Below are positions 16,392-22,600 of a stretch of 64,000 nt of DNA, piece by piece. Origin of the DNA: Curtobacterium herbarum (GTDB taxonomy: Bacteria; Actinomycetota; Actinomycetes; Actinomycetales; Microbacteriaceae); assembly GCF_016907335.1 (NCBI RefSeq), contig NZ_JAFBBT010000001.1, forward strand, positions 1,922,001 to 1,986,000. The letters are read 5' to 3'. Under the pieces are notes generated by a model that searched no databases, had not been told where the DNA came from, and saw nothing but the letters and a program-made list of their open reading frames with translations. The translations under genes were made by a program, and so were the position numbers. Numbering within the stretch: the first letter of the stretch is position 1; every line of letters starts with the position of its first letter.

Positions 16392-18563
16392 TCAGGCGTC
16401 GATGCGCTCGCGGTCCAGACCCTCGCCGGCCAGGATGAACTCCTTGCGGGGCGCGACGTCGTTGCCCATGAGCAGCTCGAAGACCTTCGCCGCGGACTCC
16501 GCATCCGACACGTTCACCCGGCGCAGGGTGCGGTGCGCACGGTCCATCGTCGTCTCGGCGAGCTGGTCGGCGTCCATCTCCCCCAGCCCCTTGTAGCGCT
16601 GGATCGGCTCGAGGTACTTCTTGTTCGACCGCTCGAGCTTCTTCAGCAGCGTCGCGAGCTCCTGCTCGGAGTACGTGTACAGCGTGTCGTTCGGCTTGCC
16701 CCGGTTCACGACCACGACCCGGTGCAGCGGTGGCACAGCGGCGAACACCCGGCCCTGCTCGATCATCGGTCGCATGTAGCGGAAGAACAGGGTCAGCAGC
16801 AGCGTGCGGATGTGTGCGCCGTCGACGTCGGCGTCCGACATGATGATGATCTTGCCGTACCGGGCCTGGTCGAGCTCGAACGTGCGACCGGACCCGGCAC
16901 CGATGACCTGGATGATCGACGCGCACTCGACGTTCGACAGCATGTCCGACACGGACGCCTTCTGCACGTTGAGGATCTTGCCGCGGATCGGCAGGAGCGC
17001 CTGGTACTCGCTGTTCCGGGCGAGCTTCGCGGTGCCCAGGGCCGAGTCACCCTCGACGATGAAGAGCTCGGTGCCCTCGACGTCGTTCGACCGGCAGTCC
17101 GCCAGCTTCGTCGGCAGCGAGGAGTTCTCGAGCGCGTTCTTGCGACGCTGCGTCTCCTTGTGGGCACGGGCCGAGATCCGGGTCTTCATCTCGGCGACGA
17201 CCTTCTCGAGGAGCCCGGCCGCCTGCGCCTTCTCGGTGCGCTGGGTCGAGGTGAGGATCTCCGTCATCCGCTTCGCCACGACCGAGTCGACGATGCGGCG
17301 GACGGCAGGCGTCCCCAGGATCTCCTTCGTCTGGCCCTCGAACTGCGGCTCCGGTAGCCGGACGGTGAGCACGGCGGTCAGGCCTGCGAGCACGTCGTCC
17401 TTCTCGAGCTTGTCCTGGCCGACCTTGAGCTTGCGGGCGTTCGCCTCGACCTGGGTGCGCACGGCCTTGACGAGACCCGCCTCGAACCCCGCTTGGTGCG
17501 TCCCGCCCTTCGGCGTGGCGATGATGTTGACGAAGCTGCGGAACACCGTCTCGTAGCCGTCGCCCCAGCGCAGGGCCACGTCGACCTCACACGTGCGCTC
17601 GACCTCGGTGGAGACCATGTGCCCCTTGTCGTCGAGCATCGGCACGGTCTCCTTGAACGTGCCGGAGCCCTGGATGCGCCAGACGTCGGTCTTCGCGCCG
17701 TCGAGGGCGAGGTGCTCGACGAACTCGCCGATGCCGCCCTCGTAGCGGAACCGCTCGATGACCGGACCCTGGTCGGCGGGGGCACTGGACGCACCGTCCG
17801 CGTCCGTCCCCGACAGTGCGGGTGCCGGCGCGGCCAGCGCGGCACGCTCCGCCGCGGCCCGGATCGACGCGGGCCGGGCGTCGGTGATGGTCAGCCCGAG
17901 CCCGGGCACCAGGAACGCCGTCTGACGCGCCCGGTTCACCAGGTCGCCGGTGCTGAACGCCGCGTCCTTCGTGAAGATCTGCCGATCCGCCCAGTACCGC
18001 ACGCGGGTGCCGGTGACGCCCTTCTTCACCTTGCCGATGACGCGGAGTTCGCTGCCCGAGGTGAAGGGCGCGAACGGGGCGTCCGGGCCGATGCCCTGCG
18101 CGTCGTCGAAGATGCCGGGCTCACCGCGGTGGAACGACATGGCGTAGGTCTTGCCACCGCGGTCGACCTCGACGTCGAGGCGCTCCGACAGCGCGTTCAC
18201 GACCGAGGCGCCGACCCCGTGCAGCCCACCCGAGGCCGCGTACGACCCGGAGCCGAACTTGCCGCCGGCGTGCAGCTTCGTGAACACGACCTCCACCCCG
18301 GTCAGACCGGTCTTCGGCTCGACGTCGACGGGGATGCCGCGGGCGACGTCGGAGACCTCGACCGACCCGTCCGCGTGCAGGATCACACCGATCTCGTCAC
18401 CGTGTCCGGCGAGGGCTTCGTCCACCGAGTTGTCGATGACCTCCCACAGGCAGTGCATCAGCCCACGGGAGTCCGTCGAGCCGATGTACATGCCGGGACG
18501 CTTCCGGACCGCCTCGAGTCCTTCGAGGACGGAGAGATGCCGTGCGGAGTAGTCGGAGCTCAC
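16392..18563 (-). CDS. parE: DNA topoisomerase IV subunit B (GyrB/ParE family ATPase)
   Basis: 723 aa. The GHKL ATPase domain starts with RKRPGMYIGS and has the Mg-binding Asn in IDNSVDEALAGHGDE. A transducer domain follows, then the TOPRIM domain with VEGDSALGTAKLARN and the metal-binding SDADVDGAHIRTLLL. GyrB usually reads EGDSAGGSAK; EGDSALGTAK is the ParE-like form of actinobacteria. A low-complexity insertion (residues about 225-275, Ala/Pro-rich) interrupts the transducer region. The start is GTG at 18563; the only strong Shine-Dalgarno-like run (GGGAGGTGAG) overlaps the start codon, and no alternative start lies before the essential GMYIGS motif. Acts with the convergently encoded subunit A. 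Confidence 0.93.
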   Translation of the reverse strand: MSSDYSARHLSVLEGLEAVRKRPGMYIGSTDSRGLMHCLWEVIDNSVDEALAGHGDEIGVILHADGSVEVSDVARGIPVDVEPKTGLTGVEVVFTKLHAGGKFGSGSYAASGGLHGVGASVVNALSERLDVEVDRGGKTYAMSFHRGEPGIFDDAQGIGPDAPFAPFTSGSELRVIGKVKKGVTGTRVRYWADRQIFTKDAAFSTGDLVNRARQTAFLVPGLGLTITDARPASIRAAAERAALAAPAPALSGTDADGASSAPADQGPVIERFRYEGGIGEFVEHLALDGAKTDVWRIQGSGTFKETVPMLDDKGHMVSTEVERTCEVDVALRWGDGYETVFRSFVNIIATPKGGTHQAGFEAGLVKAVRTQVEANARKLKVGQDKLEKDDVLAGLTAVLTVRLPEPQFEGQTKEILGTPAVRRIVDSVVAKRMTEILTSTQRTEKAQAAGLLEKVVAEMKTRISARAHKETQRRKNALENSSLPTKLADCRSNDVEGTELFIVEGDSALGTAKLARNSEYQALLPIRGKILNVQKASVSDMLSNVECASIIQVIGAGSGRTFELDQARYGKIIIMSDADVDGAHIRTLLLTLFFRYMRPMIEQGRVFAAVPPLHRVVVVNRGKPNDTLYTYSEQELATLLKKLERSNKKYLEPIQRYKGLGEMDADQLAETTMDRAHRTLRRVNVSDAESAAKVFELLMGNDVAPRKEFILAGEGLDRERIDA

Positions 18564-18742: not shown

Positions 18743-18970
18743 ATGACCCAGACCGTGCAGGACCTCCCCGTCGACGAACTCAGCAACAACCACCAGCTCA
18801 CCGCGGCCGACCGTTGCGACAGCTGCGGTGCGCAGGCCTACATCCGCGCCACCATGGCCAGTGGTGAGCTCCTGTTCTGCGCGCACCACGGCGCAGAGTT
18901 CAAGGACAAGCTCGCCGCGACCGCGCTCGAGTGGCACGACGAGTCGTCGCGACTCCACGAGTCCAAGTAG
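18743..18970 (+). CDS. DUF7455 small zinc-ribbon-like protein
   Basis: 75 aa. The core CDSCGAQAYIRATMASGELLFCAHHG (residues 24-49, quoted in part) has a CxxC followed by CxxH, a small zinc-binding fold. This matches the actinobacterial DUF7455 family, usually close to sigA or topoisomerase genes; function unknown. AGGAG lies 7 nt before the ATG. A stand-alone gene: upstream is the divergent parE, downstream a strong hairpin. Confidence 0.85.
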   Translation: MTQTVQDLPVDELSNNHQLTAADRCDSCGAQAYIRATMASGELLFCAHHGAEFKDKLAATALEWHDESSRLHESK

Positions 18971-19092: not shown

Positions 19093-19866
19093 TCAGGCGA
19101 TGCGCTTGAACGCCTTGTCGACGTACCGGTCGATGGTCGCGCGGGCTTCGCCGGCGTACCGGTCGATCGTCGCGGTCCGCGCCGGGTCCGGCGTGTAGCC
19201 GCGGCCGAGGCGGGTCGTCGCGGCCGCGAGGACACCGTCGGTCAGCTGCGGGTTGAGCGGCAGGACCGGTCCCTGGGTGTGCGTGCCGAAGGAGTTCCCG
19301 GTGAGCGCACCCTCGACCGGTGACCCGGCCTGGTTGCCGCCGCCGGAGACGACGTCGGCGAACGGCGACACGCCGTCGGCGAGCTCAATGCGTGCGGCGT
19401 GATCCTCGAAGCCGGCCAGCCGGGTCGATGCGCCCGACAGCAGCGGGTACCGGGTCTCGAGGACGAAGTAGTTCACCCGACGCTCGGCGCCGCGGACGGC
19501 CCGTGCGTCGAACACACCGAAGCCGTCGATCGGTGCACCGTCGGTCGGGACCACCTGGTTCGTGGCGAGGTCGAACCCGCCACCGACGGCCACGACCGGC
19601 ACACCGGCGGTGGCGAGGTCGCGCAGCACGGCGCCGATCCGACCGACGTCAGATCCGAGCGAGCGCATCGCGCTGAGCGGACCGTTGCCGACCACGACGA
19701 CGTCGGCCGTGGTGGGCAGGACGTCGCCGGGCGCGTACTCGACGACCTCCGTGGCGATGTCCGCAGCGTCCGCACGACGGACCAGGGCCGCGACGTTGCC
19801 GCGGTCTCCCGAGACCCCCATCTGGCGGGGGTAGACGTGCAGGATGGTCAGGCGATCGGCCGTCAT
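19093..19866 (-). CDS. gatD: GatD-like glutamine amidotransferase with lost catalytic residues, partner of MurT
   Basis: 257 aa, class I glutamine amidotransferase fold of the GatD/CobQ type. In the MurT-GatD complex GatD hydrolyses glutamine to supply ammonia for amidating D-Glu of lipid II. Family landmarks are present: GVPVVAVGGG at the nucleophile elbow (residues 89-97), GFGVFD, GFEDHAARI and GTHTQGPVLPLNP (194-206). The nucleophile elbow, normally AICGGYQ, reads AVGGGFD, so Cys is replaced by Gly95; the HGP catalytic His is Gln198. No cysteine occurs in the protein. The glutaminase should be inactive as read. ATG at 19866 overlaps the murT stop (ATGA), so the pair is translationally coupled. 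The fold call is firm; the loss is read directly; any new role is inference. Confidence 0.85.
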   Translation of the reverse strand: MTADRLTILHVYPRQMGVSGDRGNVAALVRRADAADIATEVVEYAPGDVLPTTADVVVVGNGPLSAMRSLGSDVGRIGAVLRDLATAGVPVVAVGGGFDLATNQVVPTDGAPIDGFGVFDARAVRGAERRVNYFVLETRYPLLSGASTRLAGFEDHAARIELADGVSPFADVVSGGGNQAGSPVEGALTGNSFGTHTQGPVLPLNPQLTDGVLAAATTRLGRGYTPDPARTATIDRYAGEARATIDRYVDKAFKRIA

Positions 19867-21125
19867 GCGGTCTTCTCCATGTCCGGGTGGCCGAGGGCCT
19901 TCCGGGCGATCATCATGATCTCGTAGTTGACGATGAAGTTCTTCGTGCCGGTCGTCGTGGACCCGAGGCCCTGCATGTGCCGGATCGCGGACTCGACGTC
20001 CGGCTCGACGCGACCGATGCGGACACCGGCGTGCTCGAGTGCGACCGCGATCTGCCAGGCCTTGTCGCCCGAGACGACGTCCACGTGGTCGAGCTTCGAG
20101 AAGTCGATGTCGTAGATCCACGAGATGTCGGGCGTGCCCTCGTCGATCGCCATGAGGACCTGCTCCGGGTGCGCCGGCAGGGCGTCCAGGTTCAGCTGCA
20201 GGCTCGCCGCGTTCTTGAACATCGTGAACTCGGCCGACTCCCCCGCGATCGGCAGACGCTCGCCACGCCCGTAGGCCGGCTTCATCCGCTCGAACGCCTT
20301 GGTCACGGCGGCCGGACGGAACTGGTCGCCCAGCGCGGCACTGGCCGTCGCGGCGGCAGCGGCAGCGTCCACCGCGTAGTGCAGGCCGCGGGCCGGCAGG
20401 CGGACCGGGATCTCGGTGCCGGCGAACGCGATGGTCGCAGCGTCACCGGTGAAGGTCACGATCTCGGCGTCGGCGGTCGTCTGTGCCCGGTCGGCACCGG
20501 CGACGAAGTCGTCGGCGTTCTGCAGACCGTTCGGTGCGGCGGCGACGACGTCGGTGCTCGCGCCGAACCGCAGGACCCGCTGGGCGTCGACGGCCGAGTA
20601 GGCGTCGAGGAACTGGTCGTCGTGGTTCGTGATGACGTTCGCCGTCGACAGGGCCGCCGTGTCGAGCATCATCGTCGCGACGCGCTCGGTCTCGAAGAAC
20701 CGGTAGAGCTGGTCGACCTGGACGTTGAGCATCGTCACCGTGGACGGCGACAGGATGCCGGCGAGCTCGACCGCGAAGGCCTCGTCGACCTCGAGGATCC
20801 CGATGTCCGCCTTGAGCTTGCCGCCCAGCGAGACCTCGGACAGCAGCGCCGACGCGATGCCCTGCGGCAGGTTCGCGCCGGACGGGTTCGTGAACACCCG
20901 GAGGCCGTGCGCCCGCACGATCTCCGAGATCATGTGGGTCGTCGTCGACTTGCCGTTCGACCCGAGCACGAAGACGACGCCGTTCGGGAACTGCCGCGTC
21001 ACGTGCTGCAGGAAGTCCGGCACGAGCTTGAGGACGATGTAGCCCGGGTAGGCGGACCCCCCGCCCCGCGCTCGCGCGAGGGCACGGAGGATCCGCCCGA
21101 CCAGGATCGGGACCACGAAACGCAC
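19863..21125 (-). CDS. murT: MurT-like Mur ligase (DUF1727), atypical
   Basis: 420 aa. A Mur-ligase central ATPase domain has the P-loop GSNGKSTTT (55-63) and EVDEAFAV, followed by the MurT C-terminal DUF1727 domain with DISWIYDID (from Asp333) and VSGDKAWQIAVALEHAGV. MurT activates the alpha-carboxyl of D-Glu in lipid II with ATP. It differs from textbook MurT by lacking the Cys4 zinc ribbon inserted in the central domain; the protein contains no cysteine. The GTG start at 21125 lies 8 bp after the sigA stop with no clear Shine-Dalgarno, so expression probably depends on read-through from sigA. Downstream gatD overlaps by 4 nt. MurT-family identity is secure; the substrate of this variant is open. 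Confidence 0.88.
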   Translation of the reverse strand: MRFVVPILVGRILRALARARGGGSAYPGYIVLKLVPDFLQHVTRQFPNGVVFVLGSNGKSTTTHMISEIVRAHGLRVFTNPSGANLPQGIASALLSEVSLGGKLKADIGILEVDEAFAVELAGILSPSTVTMLNVQVDQLYRFFETERVATMMLDTAALSTANVITNHDDQFLDAYSAVDAQRVLRFGASTDVVAAAPNGLQNADDFVAGADRAQTTADAEIVTFTGDAATIAFAGTEIPVRLPARGLHYAVDAAAAAATASAALGDQFRPAAVTKAFERMKPAYGRGERLPIAGESAEFTMFKNAASLQLNLDALPAHPEQVLMAIDEGTPDISWIYDIDFSKLDHVDVVSGDKAWQIAVALEHAGVRIGRVEPDVESAIRHMQGLGSTTTGTKNFIVNYEIMMIARKALGHPDMEKTA

Positions 21126-21133
21126 CGGTCGGC

Positions 21134-22429
21134 CTACTCGAGGTAGTCGCGGAGCGACTGCGACCGGGACGGGTGGCGGAGCTTCGCCATCGTCTTCGAC
21201 TCGATCTGGCGGATCCGCTCACGCGTGACGCCGAACGTGTCGCCGATCTGGTCGAGGGTCTTCGGCTGACCGTCGCCCAGGCCGAAGCGCATCCGGATCA
21301 CGCCGGCCTCACGCTCGGAGAGGGAGTCGAGCAGGCTCTCGAGCTGCTTCTGCAGCATCGTGAAGCCCACCGCGTCGGCCGGCACGACCGCTTCGGTGTC
21401 CTCGATGAGGTCACCGAACTCGGAGTCACCGTCCTCGCCGAGCGGGGTGTGCAGGGAGATCGGCTCGCGACCGTACTTCTGGACCTCGACGACCTTCTCG
21501 GGCGTCATGTCGAGCTCGCGGGCGAGCTCTTCCGGCGTGGGCTCGCGACCGAGGTCCTGCAGCATCTGCCGCTGGACACGGGCGAGCTTGTTGATGACCT
21601 CGACCATGTGCACCGGGATGCGGATGGTGCGTGCCTGGTCCGCCATCGCGCGGGTGATGGCCTGACGGATCCACCACGTCGCGTAGGTCGAGAACTTGAA
21701 GCCCTTCGTGTAGTCGAACTTCTCGACGGCACGGATCAGGCCCAGGTTGCCTTCCTGGATGAGGTCGAGGAACTGCATCCCACGACCCGTGTAGCGCTTG
21801 GCGAGCGAGACGACCAGGCGGAGGTTCGCACCGAGCAGGTGCGACTTCGCGCGCTGACCGTCGCGGGCCACCCAGCGCAGCTCGCGCTCGGCCGGCTTGG
21901 ACAGCCCGGTCGAGTGCTGCAGCTTGTCCTCGGCGAACAGGCCGGCCTCGATGCGCATCGCGAGCTCGACCTCCTGCTCGGCGTTGAGCAGGGCGACCTT
22001 GCCGATCTGCTTGAGGTAGTCCTTCACCGGGTCCGCGGTGGCACCCGTGATGGTCGTCGAGTAGACCGGCGCTTCGTCGTCGTCGGTCTGCGAGATGACC
22101 AGGGCGCCGGCGGCGACCGCAGCCGCTTCCGTCGCGGGCTTCGCGGCCGAGTCGTCGTCCGAGTCCTCGGTCGCGTCGTCGGTGGCGTCCTCGGCCGGGG
22201 TCTCGTCCTCGGCGGTCGCCTCGTCGTCCTCCGACGCGGCGGCCTTCTTGCCGCTCGCCTTCTTCGGGGCCGCCTTCTTGGGGGCGGCCTTCTTGGTGGC
22301 GGTGGTGGTCCTGGTGGCGCGCTTCTTCGGCGCGACCGTGCCCTCCGTCGTGTCCGTGGCGTCTTCCGCCACGACGCCGTCGGGCGTGGTGTCCTTCGTG
22401 GGATCGACCGTCGTGCTCCGGGCAGCCAT
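21134..22429 (-). CDS. sigA: primary RNA polymerase sigma factor (RpoD/HrdB/SigA)
   Basis: 431 aa, sigma-70 group 1. An N-terminal Lys/Ala/Pro-rich basic tract ([18 protein letters not shown]) is followed by an acidic stretch (about 65-100), typical of actinobacterial HrdB. Then region 1.2 ([21 protein letters not shown]), regions 2.1-2.4 ([27 protein letters not shown] split over 205-235; [28 protein letters not shown]), region 3 and region 4.2 ([20 protein letters not shown]). The ATG at 22429 is preceded by GAGGAAGG. The frame is open further upstream, but that part has no sigma similarity. murT-gatD follow on the same strand only 8 bp away. Confidence 0.97.
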
Positions 22430-22600
22430 GCGATCACCTTCCTCGTCGTGCCACGTTCCTGGGGTCGTGGCCTTCCCTCGCCACCCAGGGCCACCGCCGC
22501 GGTCCCCCACGTCGTCTGGTCCTACCGTTCCGGGCAGCACTAGGACCCATGTCAAGTCCCCCGACGCTGAACGCAGGGAACCCGAAAGGGTCCGTGGTCA

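Follow-up and report, generated by a model that had tools for sequence, protein, structure and literature searches.

The gene pair described here most closely resembles MurT/GatD, the lipid II isoglutaminyl synthase of Staphylococcus aureus and Streptococcus pneumoniae. In group B cell walls, a taxonomic marker for decades, the cross-bridge is carried by the alpha-carboxyl of D-Glu. No paper naming an enzyme for this bond between D-Glu and the bridge was found in the open-licence PMC literature, nor was a description of a loss of the GatD catalytic residues or biochemical work on such a pair; PMC12786226 and PMC11915815 present a phylogeny of MurT or of MurT/GatD, and the excerpts of both leave such a loss unmentioned. 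In S. aureus, MurT and GatD are each inactive alone (PMC3266927, excerpt). In the GatD-C94G mutant the use of glutamine was stopped, and the NH3-dependent activity of MurT was unaffected at pH 8.5 and absent at pH 7.5; the donor table in the excerpt lists no amino acid (PMC3266927). The prolines of the GPxLxxNP stretch of S. aureus GatD contact MurT. In S. pneumoniae MurT, Lys59 is crucial, and activity is abolished when Asn85 or either part of the acidic pair is altered (PMC6085368, excerpt).

The pair under study lies in a stretch of 64,000 nucleotides of Curtobacterium herbarum (contig NZ_JAFBBT010000001.1, positions 1,922,001 to 1,986,000), referred to as the window; all coordinates given are those of the window. 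A pair is called dead, that is, glutaminase-dead, when the catalytic Cys of GatD is absent, and intact, or C/H, when Cys and His are both present. The gatD homologue (19093..19866, minus strand; the plus strand of this interval is interrupted by a stop) encodes 257 amino acids, and its partner, the Mur ligase family gene murT (19863..21125, minus strand), encodes 420; neither protein contains a cysteine and the two genes overlap by ATGA. GatD matches PF07685, and MurT matches PF08245 and PF08353. Upstream, on the strand of murT and 8 bases from it, lies sigA (21134..22555, minus strand), which forms one edge of the slot in which the pair is found. The downstream edge is a DUF7455 gene (18743..18970, plus strand), and a gene for a topoisomerase subunit B of the gyrB/parE type (16392..18563, minus strand) is a further neighbour.

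In the alignment to S. aureus GatD (E 9e-18) the catalytic Cys94 is opposite Gly95 (codon 19582..19584, minus strand) and His189 is opposite Gln198 (codon 19273..19275, minus strand); the motifs at these two positions read VPVVAVGGGFDLATN and GTHTQGPVLPLNP. A first-pass annotation, made from the sequence alone, had reported the replacement of both residues and the ATGA overlap, and alignment and sequence confirm them. Because the protein holds no cysteine at all, the catalytic Cys cannot be recovered elsewhere by realignment. A second MurT/GatD pair in the genome was considered and rejected, as the profile search gave a single MurT_C match; four proteins of the genome match PF07685, with the window GatD as the best of them. 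The pair scored far under the NCBIfam equivalog cut-offs for isoglutaminyl synthase (78.3 versus 450 and 94.9 versus 800). In the protein database 198 relatives of this GatD were found, and the Cys was absent from all of the 120 that were listed.

To determine the spread of the loss, 120 genomes of the family, recognised as Microbacteriaceae by named proteins, were searched with a profile of dead MurTs. A MurT-like protein was present in 99 genomes and only distant Mur ligases were found in 21. Pairs were read from 98 of the 99 (one, G035, is a fragment and was left out). Of the 102 pairs obtained, 88, from 87 genomes, have lost the Cys, and 14 have Cys and His. These 14 came from 11 genomes with only that pair and three genomes with both an intact and a dead pair. 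Outside the Microbacteriaceae, Cys and His were present in 119 of 123 readable pairs (all 49 read in the order search and 70 of the 74 read in the class and phylum searches), a non-random set of the best-scoring loci plus chosen weak ones, from which some genomes with weak MurT_C matches were left out (G428, G458, G899 and G937 among them). Two further loci outside the family (L167 and L200) had no readable GatD.

The four dead pairs from outside the family (L212-L215) carry a GatD with FTGNA and LxGP motifs, and a protein search with this type gave Collinsella and Clostridia names. A scan of named genomes for the FTGNA family kept 80 loci out of 204 relatives, MAGs for the most part; the Cys was absent in all 80, as the choice of query would lead one to expect. 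In two Collinsella-like genomes (G804 and G906; L213 and L215) MurT and GatD read as a single open frame of about 740 amino acids, and at L212 the best GatD match precedes MurT instead of following it.

In a MurT tree of 129 rows, the dead pairs of classes A-D formed one clade (SH-aLRT 100) beside intact Actinomycetales pairs, and a second clade was formed by class E and class F of the Microbacteriaceae, Coriobacteria and Clostridia. A single origin of the loss was rejected: forcing the dead pairs together gave a p-AU of 1.1e-5 on 66 rows, for which three long rows (L119, L059 and L221) were dropped, classes A-D and the intact pairs were represented by random subsets, and the clostridial pairs by the first seven. 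The glutaminase was thus lost twice, independently.

The residues of the ligase half have been retained. In the window MurT these include the P-loop GSNGKS (residues 55-60; 20946..20963, minus strand) with Lys59, Asn85 of the GAN motif (20871..20873, minus strand) and Asp333, the equivalent of S. aureus Asp349, which faces GatD. Lys59, Asn85, Glu115 and Arg287 were kept in all 88 dead pairs, Asp114 in 86 and Asp333 in 78; the catalytic Cys was kept in none. Asp333 is part of the motif AIDEGTPDISWIYDIDF (residues 326-342; 20100..20150, minus strand), for which intact pairs have AINDDGRDxSW or similar. Across the C/H pairs this motif is of the IN(D/A/G/S)DGxDxSW type with few variants, and dead pairs have other motifs. 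Loss of the MurT zinc ribbon was considered as a mark of dead pairs and rejected, since many intact pairs of the same order do not have the four cysteines and most dead pairs of class E do.

On the side of GatD, classes A-D keep the MurT-contacting GPxLxxNP stretch, with Asn205 and Pro206 99% kept. The pocket is not kept. In 91 Cys-less rows (including three duplicate reads) the Cys column contained G (61), A (16), H (7), S (3), N (3) or T (1), and His was retained in the His column of 54 of these 91 rows. Four positions at which intact pairs do not vary (Gly at column 61, Asp at 64, Gln at 67 and Gln at 99) are changed in classes A-D; class E and its relatives retain the Gln at column 67. Since ligase residues and interface were kept and the pocket was lost, selection has acted on the ligase half and the interface and not on the glutaminase. 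The GatDs of class E, Coriobacteria and Clostridia have near-invariant residues of their own (Glu 9, 14, 64 and 99, Gln 67, Asn 96 and Arg 125, window numbering), and these shared polar residues may form a new ligand pocket.

The window GatD has lost both catalytic residues along with others of the pocket, which could mean that the pair is decaying or is a remnant with a purely regulatory role. For gatD, dN/dS among three Curtobacterium genomes was 0.14-0.20, and for murT 0.09-0.22; five other dead gatD pairs gave 0.13-0.23. The AlphaFold2 model of GatD (pLDDT 92.7) had S. aureus GatD as its best PDB match (6gs2_A, TM 0.82); the model of MurT (pLDDT 77, from 39 rows at 21-24% identity) served for fold only. 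The low dN/dS, the GatD fold and the Cys-less relatives indicate that the loss is not due to chance or decay. With dN/dS at 0.09-0.23 over the pairs tested, the ligase residues of MurT kept, two independent losses and a conserved slot, a remnant is very improbable.

The position of the dead pairs proved to be constant. Of the 88 dead pairs, 85 lie behind sigA and in its orientation; the distance is within 100 bases for 81 of them and 131-705 bases for the other four. Those not behind sigA are the pairs of G049 and G005 and the second pair of G111. In the flanks read, sigA adjoined none of the 14 C/H pairs, and in genomes with only a C/H pair the slot was empty in all nine whose sigA locus was fetched (of 11). 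Where the flank reached far enough, the dead pair was usually followed by DUF7455 and then by the topoisomerase B gene, which is inverted at four loci (L097, L098, L100 and L101). The slot is common to classes A-D and the distant class E, even among species of one genus (g34, g38, g44).

In 14 of the 21 family genomes without MurT the slot contained a CofE-like gene (PF01996), in 12 of these together with an ATP-grasp gene (PF14397). A fifteenth MurT-less genome with a CofE-like gene (G040) has a contig that ends at the slot. Nine more MurT-less genomes, from g78 and g73, all had both the CofE-like and the ATP-grasp gene in the slot. Altogether, the CofE-like gene was found in 17 of 120 genomes, namely 15 of the 21 MurT-less genomes plus G049 and G112 (both class F), and in none of the other 97; a weak match in G079 (46 residues, E 9e-5) was left out of this count. 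The association with the absence of MurT gave a Fisher p of 1.5e-14, in a test that ignores relatedness. No full-length CofE-like gene was found alongside classes A-E. Both states of the slot, dead pair and CofE-like gene, occur within g7, g9, g53, g54, g73 and g78. The similarity of its GatDs to named proteins (61-76%) assigns g78 to Microbacterium, and of the 12 genomes sampled there 4 had a dead MurT.

Four family genomes lacked MurT and also had no ligase in the slot. At two loci (L354 and L367, in G045 and G108) the slot genes resemble an amino-acid ABC transporter (binding protein, permease and ATPase), as judged by sequence, and no ligase was found there. An ATP-grasp gene elsewhere in the genome was considered as the ligase that the exception genomes lack and rejected: 18 were tested, with weak partial matches in G012 and G047 and none in 16. 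In G049 the sigA slot holds only two racemases (L387), and the CofE-like, MurT and GatD genes of class F lie together some 260 kb away. In G112 (L400) all of these, with both racemases, are in the slot, and the CofE-like gene is situated between sigA and the dead pair.

Several of the slot partners are related to amino acid supply. Racemase-family genes were present in 24 of 87 dead-pair genomes (flanks read) and in 13 of 23 CofE-type slots; ATP-grasp genes lay beside the pair in 5 of 87 dead-pair genomes, four of them class E. A class-III aminotransferase in the slot of L350 and another directly 3' of the clostridial dead pair L293 scored 601.8 and 582.7, respectively, on TIGR02407, both over the EctB equivalog cut-off of 552.2, which identifies them as diaminobutyrate transaminases. 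Relatives of EctB were found by BLAST in the slot of L356 and directly after the clostridial pairs L247 and L258. The transaminase is therefore present in two Microbacteriaceae slots (L350 and, by similarity, L356), and ectB directly follows 3 of 80 clostridial dead pairs (L293 and, by similarity, L247 and L258). The ATPgrasp_ST gene directly precedes the clostridial pairs L308 and L310. The CofE-like protein of the slot scored 31.3 on TIGR01916 (cut-off 180.65) and is by that test not an F420 ligase. Such supply genes are linked to the ligase in a minority of loci, the window excluded: in 51 of the 87 dead-pair genomes, the window genome among them, reading as far as the end of the slot revealed no partner gene. 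The window genome has no racemase in the slot, and its search found no CofE-like or close ATP-grasp gene.

The racemase genes of the slot encode two proteins that resemble alanine racemase. They were seen at L348, L352, L356, L357, L365, L370, L371, L373, L375, L387 and L400, and beside dead MurTs at L014, L018, L021, L035, L103 and others. One of the two keeps the PLP lysine motif in 37 of the 38 genomes where the motif could be read, the exception being a likely false motif match; the other has R, G, S, T or D in place of the PLP lysine in 23 of 23. The one Lys-bearing copy tested (L348) scored 145.3 on TIGR00492, under the cut-off of 168. Judged by these motifs, the slot racemase is likely a two-subunit enzyme with one dead subunit.

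MurT might still make D-isoglutamine, from free ammonia and with GatD as a mere scaffold, and the retained ligase residues would fit this, as would the use of NH3 by S. aureus MurT/GatD-C94G at pH 8.5 (PMC3266927, excerpt). However, the same mutant was inactive with NH3 at pH 7.5, and ammonia as donor leaves the racemases, the DAB transaminase and the CofE-like and ATP-grasp partners of the slot unexplained, as well as the replacement of the MurT motif typical of intact pairs. In addition, three genomes hold an intact pair beside the dead one, so that amidation would be covered there. We consider this explanation unlikely.

For the walls of Curtobacterium, in which D-ornithine may be the diamino acid and donor, and for those of Aurantimicrobium, no statement of the diamino acid was found in the literature searched. 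The diagnostic wall amino acids across the genera of the Microbacteriaceae include diaminobutyrate, lysine and ornithine (PMC7033078, excerpt). Rhodoluna lacicola has a B2beta wall with D-Dab and with D-Ala-D-Dab and Gly-D-Glu peptides (PMC4156110, excerpt), and in the genome taken as this species the slot is filled by a dead pair. The table gives DAB and type B10 for Glaciihabitans and Lys and B2beta for Parafrigoribacterium (PMC7033078); Glaciihabitans sp. INWT7 (GatD 100% identical) has a dead pair with racemases, and the named GatD of Parafrigoribacterium is dead. The genome taken as Pontimonas salivibrio also has a dead pair, and the one taken as Aurantimicrobium minutum an intact pair and an empty slot. 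Lysinibacter, listed with L-Lys and a peptidoglycan structure given as unknown (PMC7033078), has an intact pair. In Microbacterium, L-Lys, D-Orn and DAB are swapped within close clusters of species (PMC10757982, excerpt), which resembles the swapping of slot contents.

The first-pass annotation had predicted that the loss should track group B. This did not hold. The cross-link of Leucobacter is given as type B in six table columns (PMC4804768, excerpt), yet the nine named Leucobacter proteins that were read are all intact, and in Leucobacter G088 the slot is empty and the intact pair lies outside it. Moreover, 21 of 120 family genomes are MurT-less, 15 of them with the CofE-like gene. Collinsella and Clostridia, in which the second dead lineage occurs, may or may not be of group B. 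Strict tracking was rejected on account of Leucobacter, and the intact pair of Leucobacter and the empty-slot genomes show that the loss does not simply follow group B.

Leucobacter and the empty-slot genomes must build their walls without a slot ligase, and ATPgrasp_ST is named for sugar-transfer contexts, so one could suppose that the slot makes another amino-acid amide, in a wall polymer or small metabolite, and that the bridge ligase lies elsewhere. Against this, MurT is known to act on the D-Glu alpha-carboxyl, and for that site the Asn, Asp/Glu and Arg have been retained, the DAB transaminase and the racemases fit wall amino acids, and the five neighbours of the L293 ectB gave no match to an ectoine-pathway domain. 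We think this explanation improbable.

The reading we prefer, at a probability of roughly 65%, is that MurT and GatD of the dead pairs aminoacylate the D-Glu alpha-carboxyl of a wall precursor. As the ammonia half was lost, the bonding half was kept and the slot is occupied in relatives by other ligases and racemases, an amino acid is probably attached in the cross-bridge. From this pattern we infer substrate, product and donor as follows. MurT with GatD would work as an ATP-dependent ligase: like canonical MurT, it would activate the D-Glu alpha-carboxyl of the peptidoglycan precursor, and it would join the activated D-Glu to the amine of an amino acid (a diamino acid or glycine) and not to ammonia. 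The product would be the bond with which a group-B-type cross-bridge begins. GatD would no longer hydrolyse glutamine and would stay as an obligate scaffold of MurT, perhaps as part of the amine site. Candidate donors are D-Orn, Dab and Gly, and the gene content of the slot points to diaminobutyrate as much as to D-Orn.

That MurT and a glutaminase-dead GatD could act as an amino-acid ligase had been proposed in the first-pass annotation, and the proposal is supported in part. The single pair, the kept MurT residues and the exchange of the slot with amide ligases speak for it, and its strict link to group B had to be given up. The slot partners, the exchange of ligases in situ and the C94G mutant lend it independent support, the NH3 activity of the mutant being an experimental precedent for a MurT that accepts amines on a dead GatD scaffold.

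The sigA slot of the Microbacteriaceae would then be an exchangeable cassette for the D-Glu-bridge step, containing MurT/GatD of either dead lineage or a CofE-like ligase, usually with ATP-grasp, together with racemases in some genomes and a diaminobutyrate transaminase in two. A wider version of this proposal, which we offer tentatively and at slightly less than even odds, is that the interval from sigA to the topoisomerase B gene serves as a swappable cassette for the peptidoglycan bridge (pseudo-glutaminase Mur-type ligases that evolved twice, CofE-like and ATP-grasp ligases, two-subunit racemases and DAB transaminase), which is replaced even within a genus and sets the D-Orn, L-Lys or Dab chemotype on which taxonomy has long relied, with class E relatives doing the same job in Collinsella and gut Clostridia. 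If so, these last organisms carry amino-acid-bridged D-Glu, of which we know of no description. The dead pair is thus a concrete candidate for the group B bridge bond, the sigA slot may predict wall chemistry, and the CofE-like and ATP-grasp ligases enter as possible wall enzymes. It would also be an example from nature of an amidotransferase that, on two occasions, apparently became an amine-accepting ligase through the loss of its ammonia source.

Among known systems, MurC-F and the archaeal pMur ligases join an amino acid or dipeptide to an ATP-activated carboxylate. The window MurT aligns to these Mur ligases both in sequence and in modelled fold; they differ in having an N-terminal substrate domain and no GatD partner. 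CofE, the F420-0:L-glutamate ligase, shares the PF01996 domain with the slot protein of relatives, which differs from it in its low TIGR01916 score (given above). The S. aureus GatD-C94G protein with MurT has Cys replaced by Gly in the same column as the window GatD and can use NH3 in vitro at pH 8.5, but it is a one-residue laboratory mutant (PMC3266927, excerpt), whereas the pair described here belongs to a natural lineage, which in this genome has also lost the His, has a changed pocket and lies in a slot shared with other ligases in relatives. The isoglutaminyl synthase MurT/GatD itself (PDB 6gs2 and 6fqb) is like the window pair in its fold and overlapping genes, in the P-loop Lys, the GAN Asn, the DE pair, the Arg and the equivalent of Asp349, and in the stretch by which GatD contacts MurT. 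The window pair is distinguished from it by the absence of the catalytic Cys and His and the change of other pocket invariants in GatD, by the replacement of the INDDGRD motif in MurT, and by scores that miss the equivalog cut-offs.
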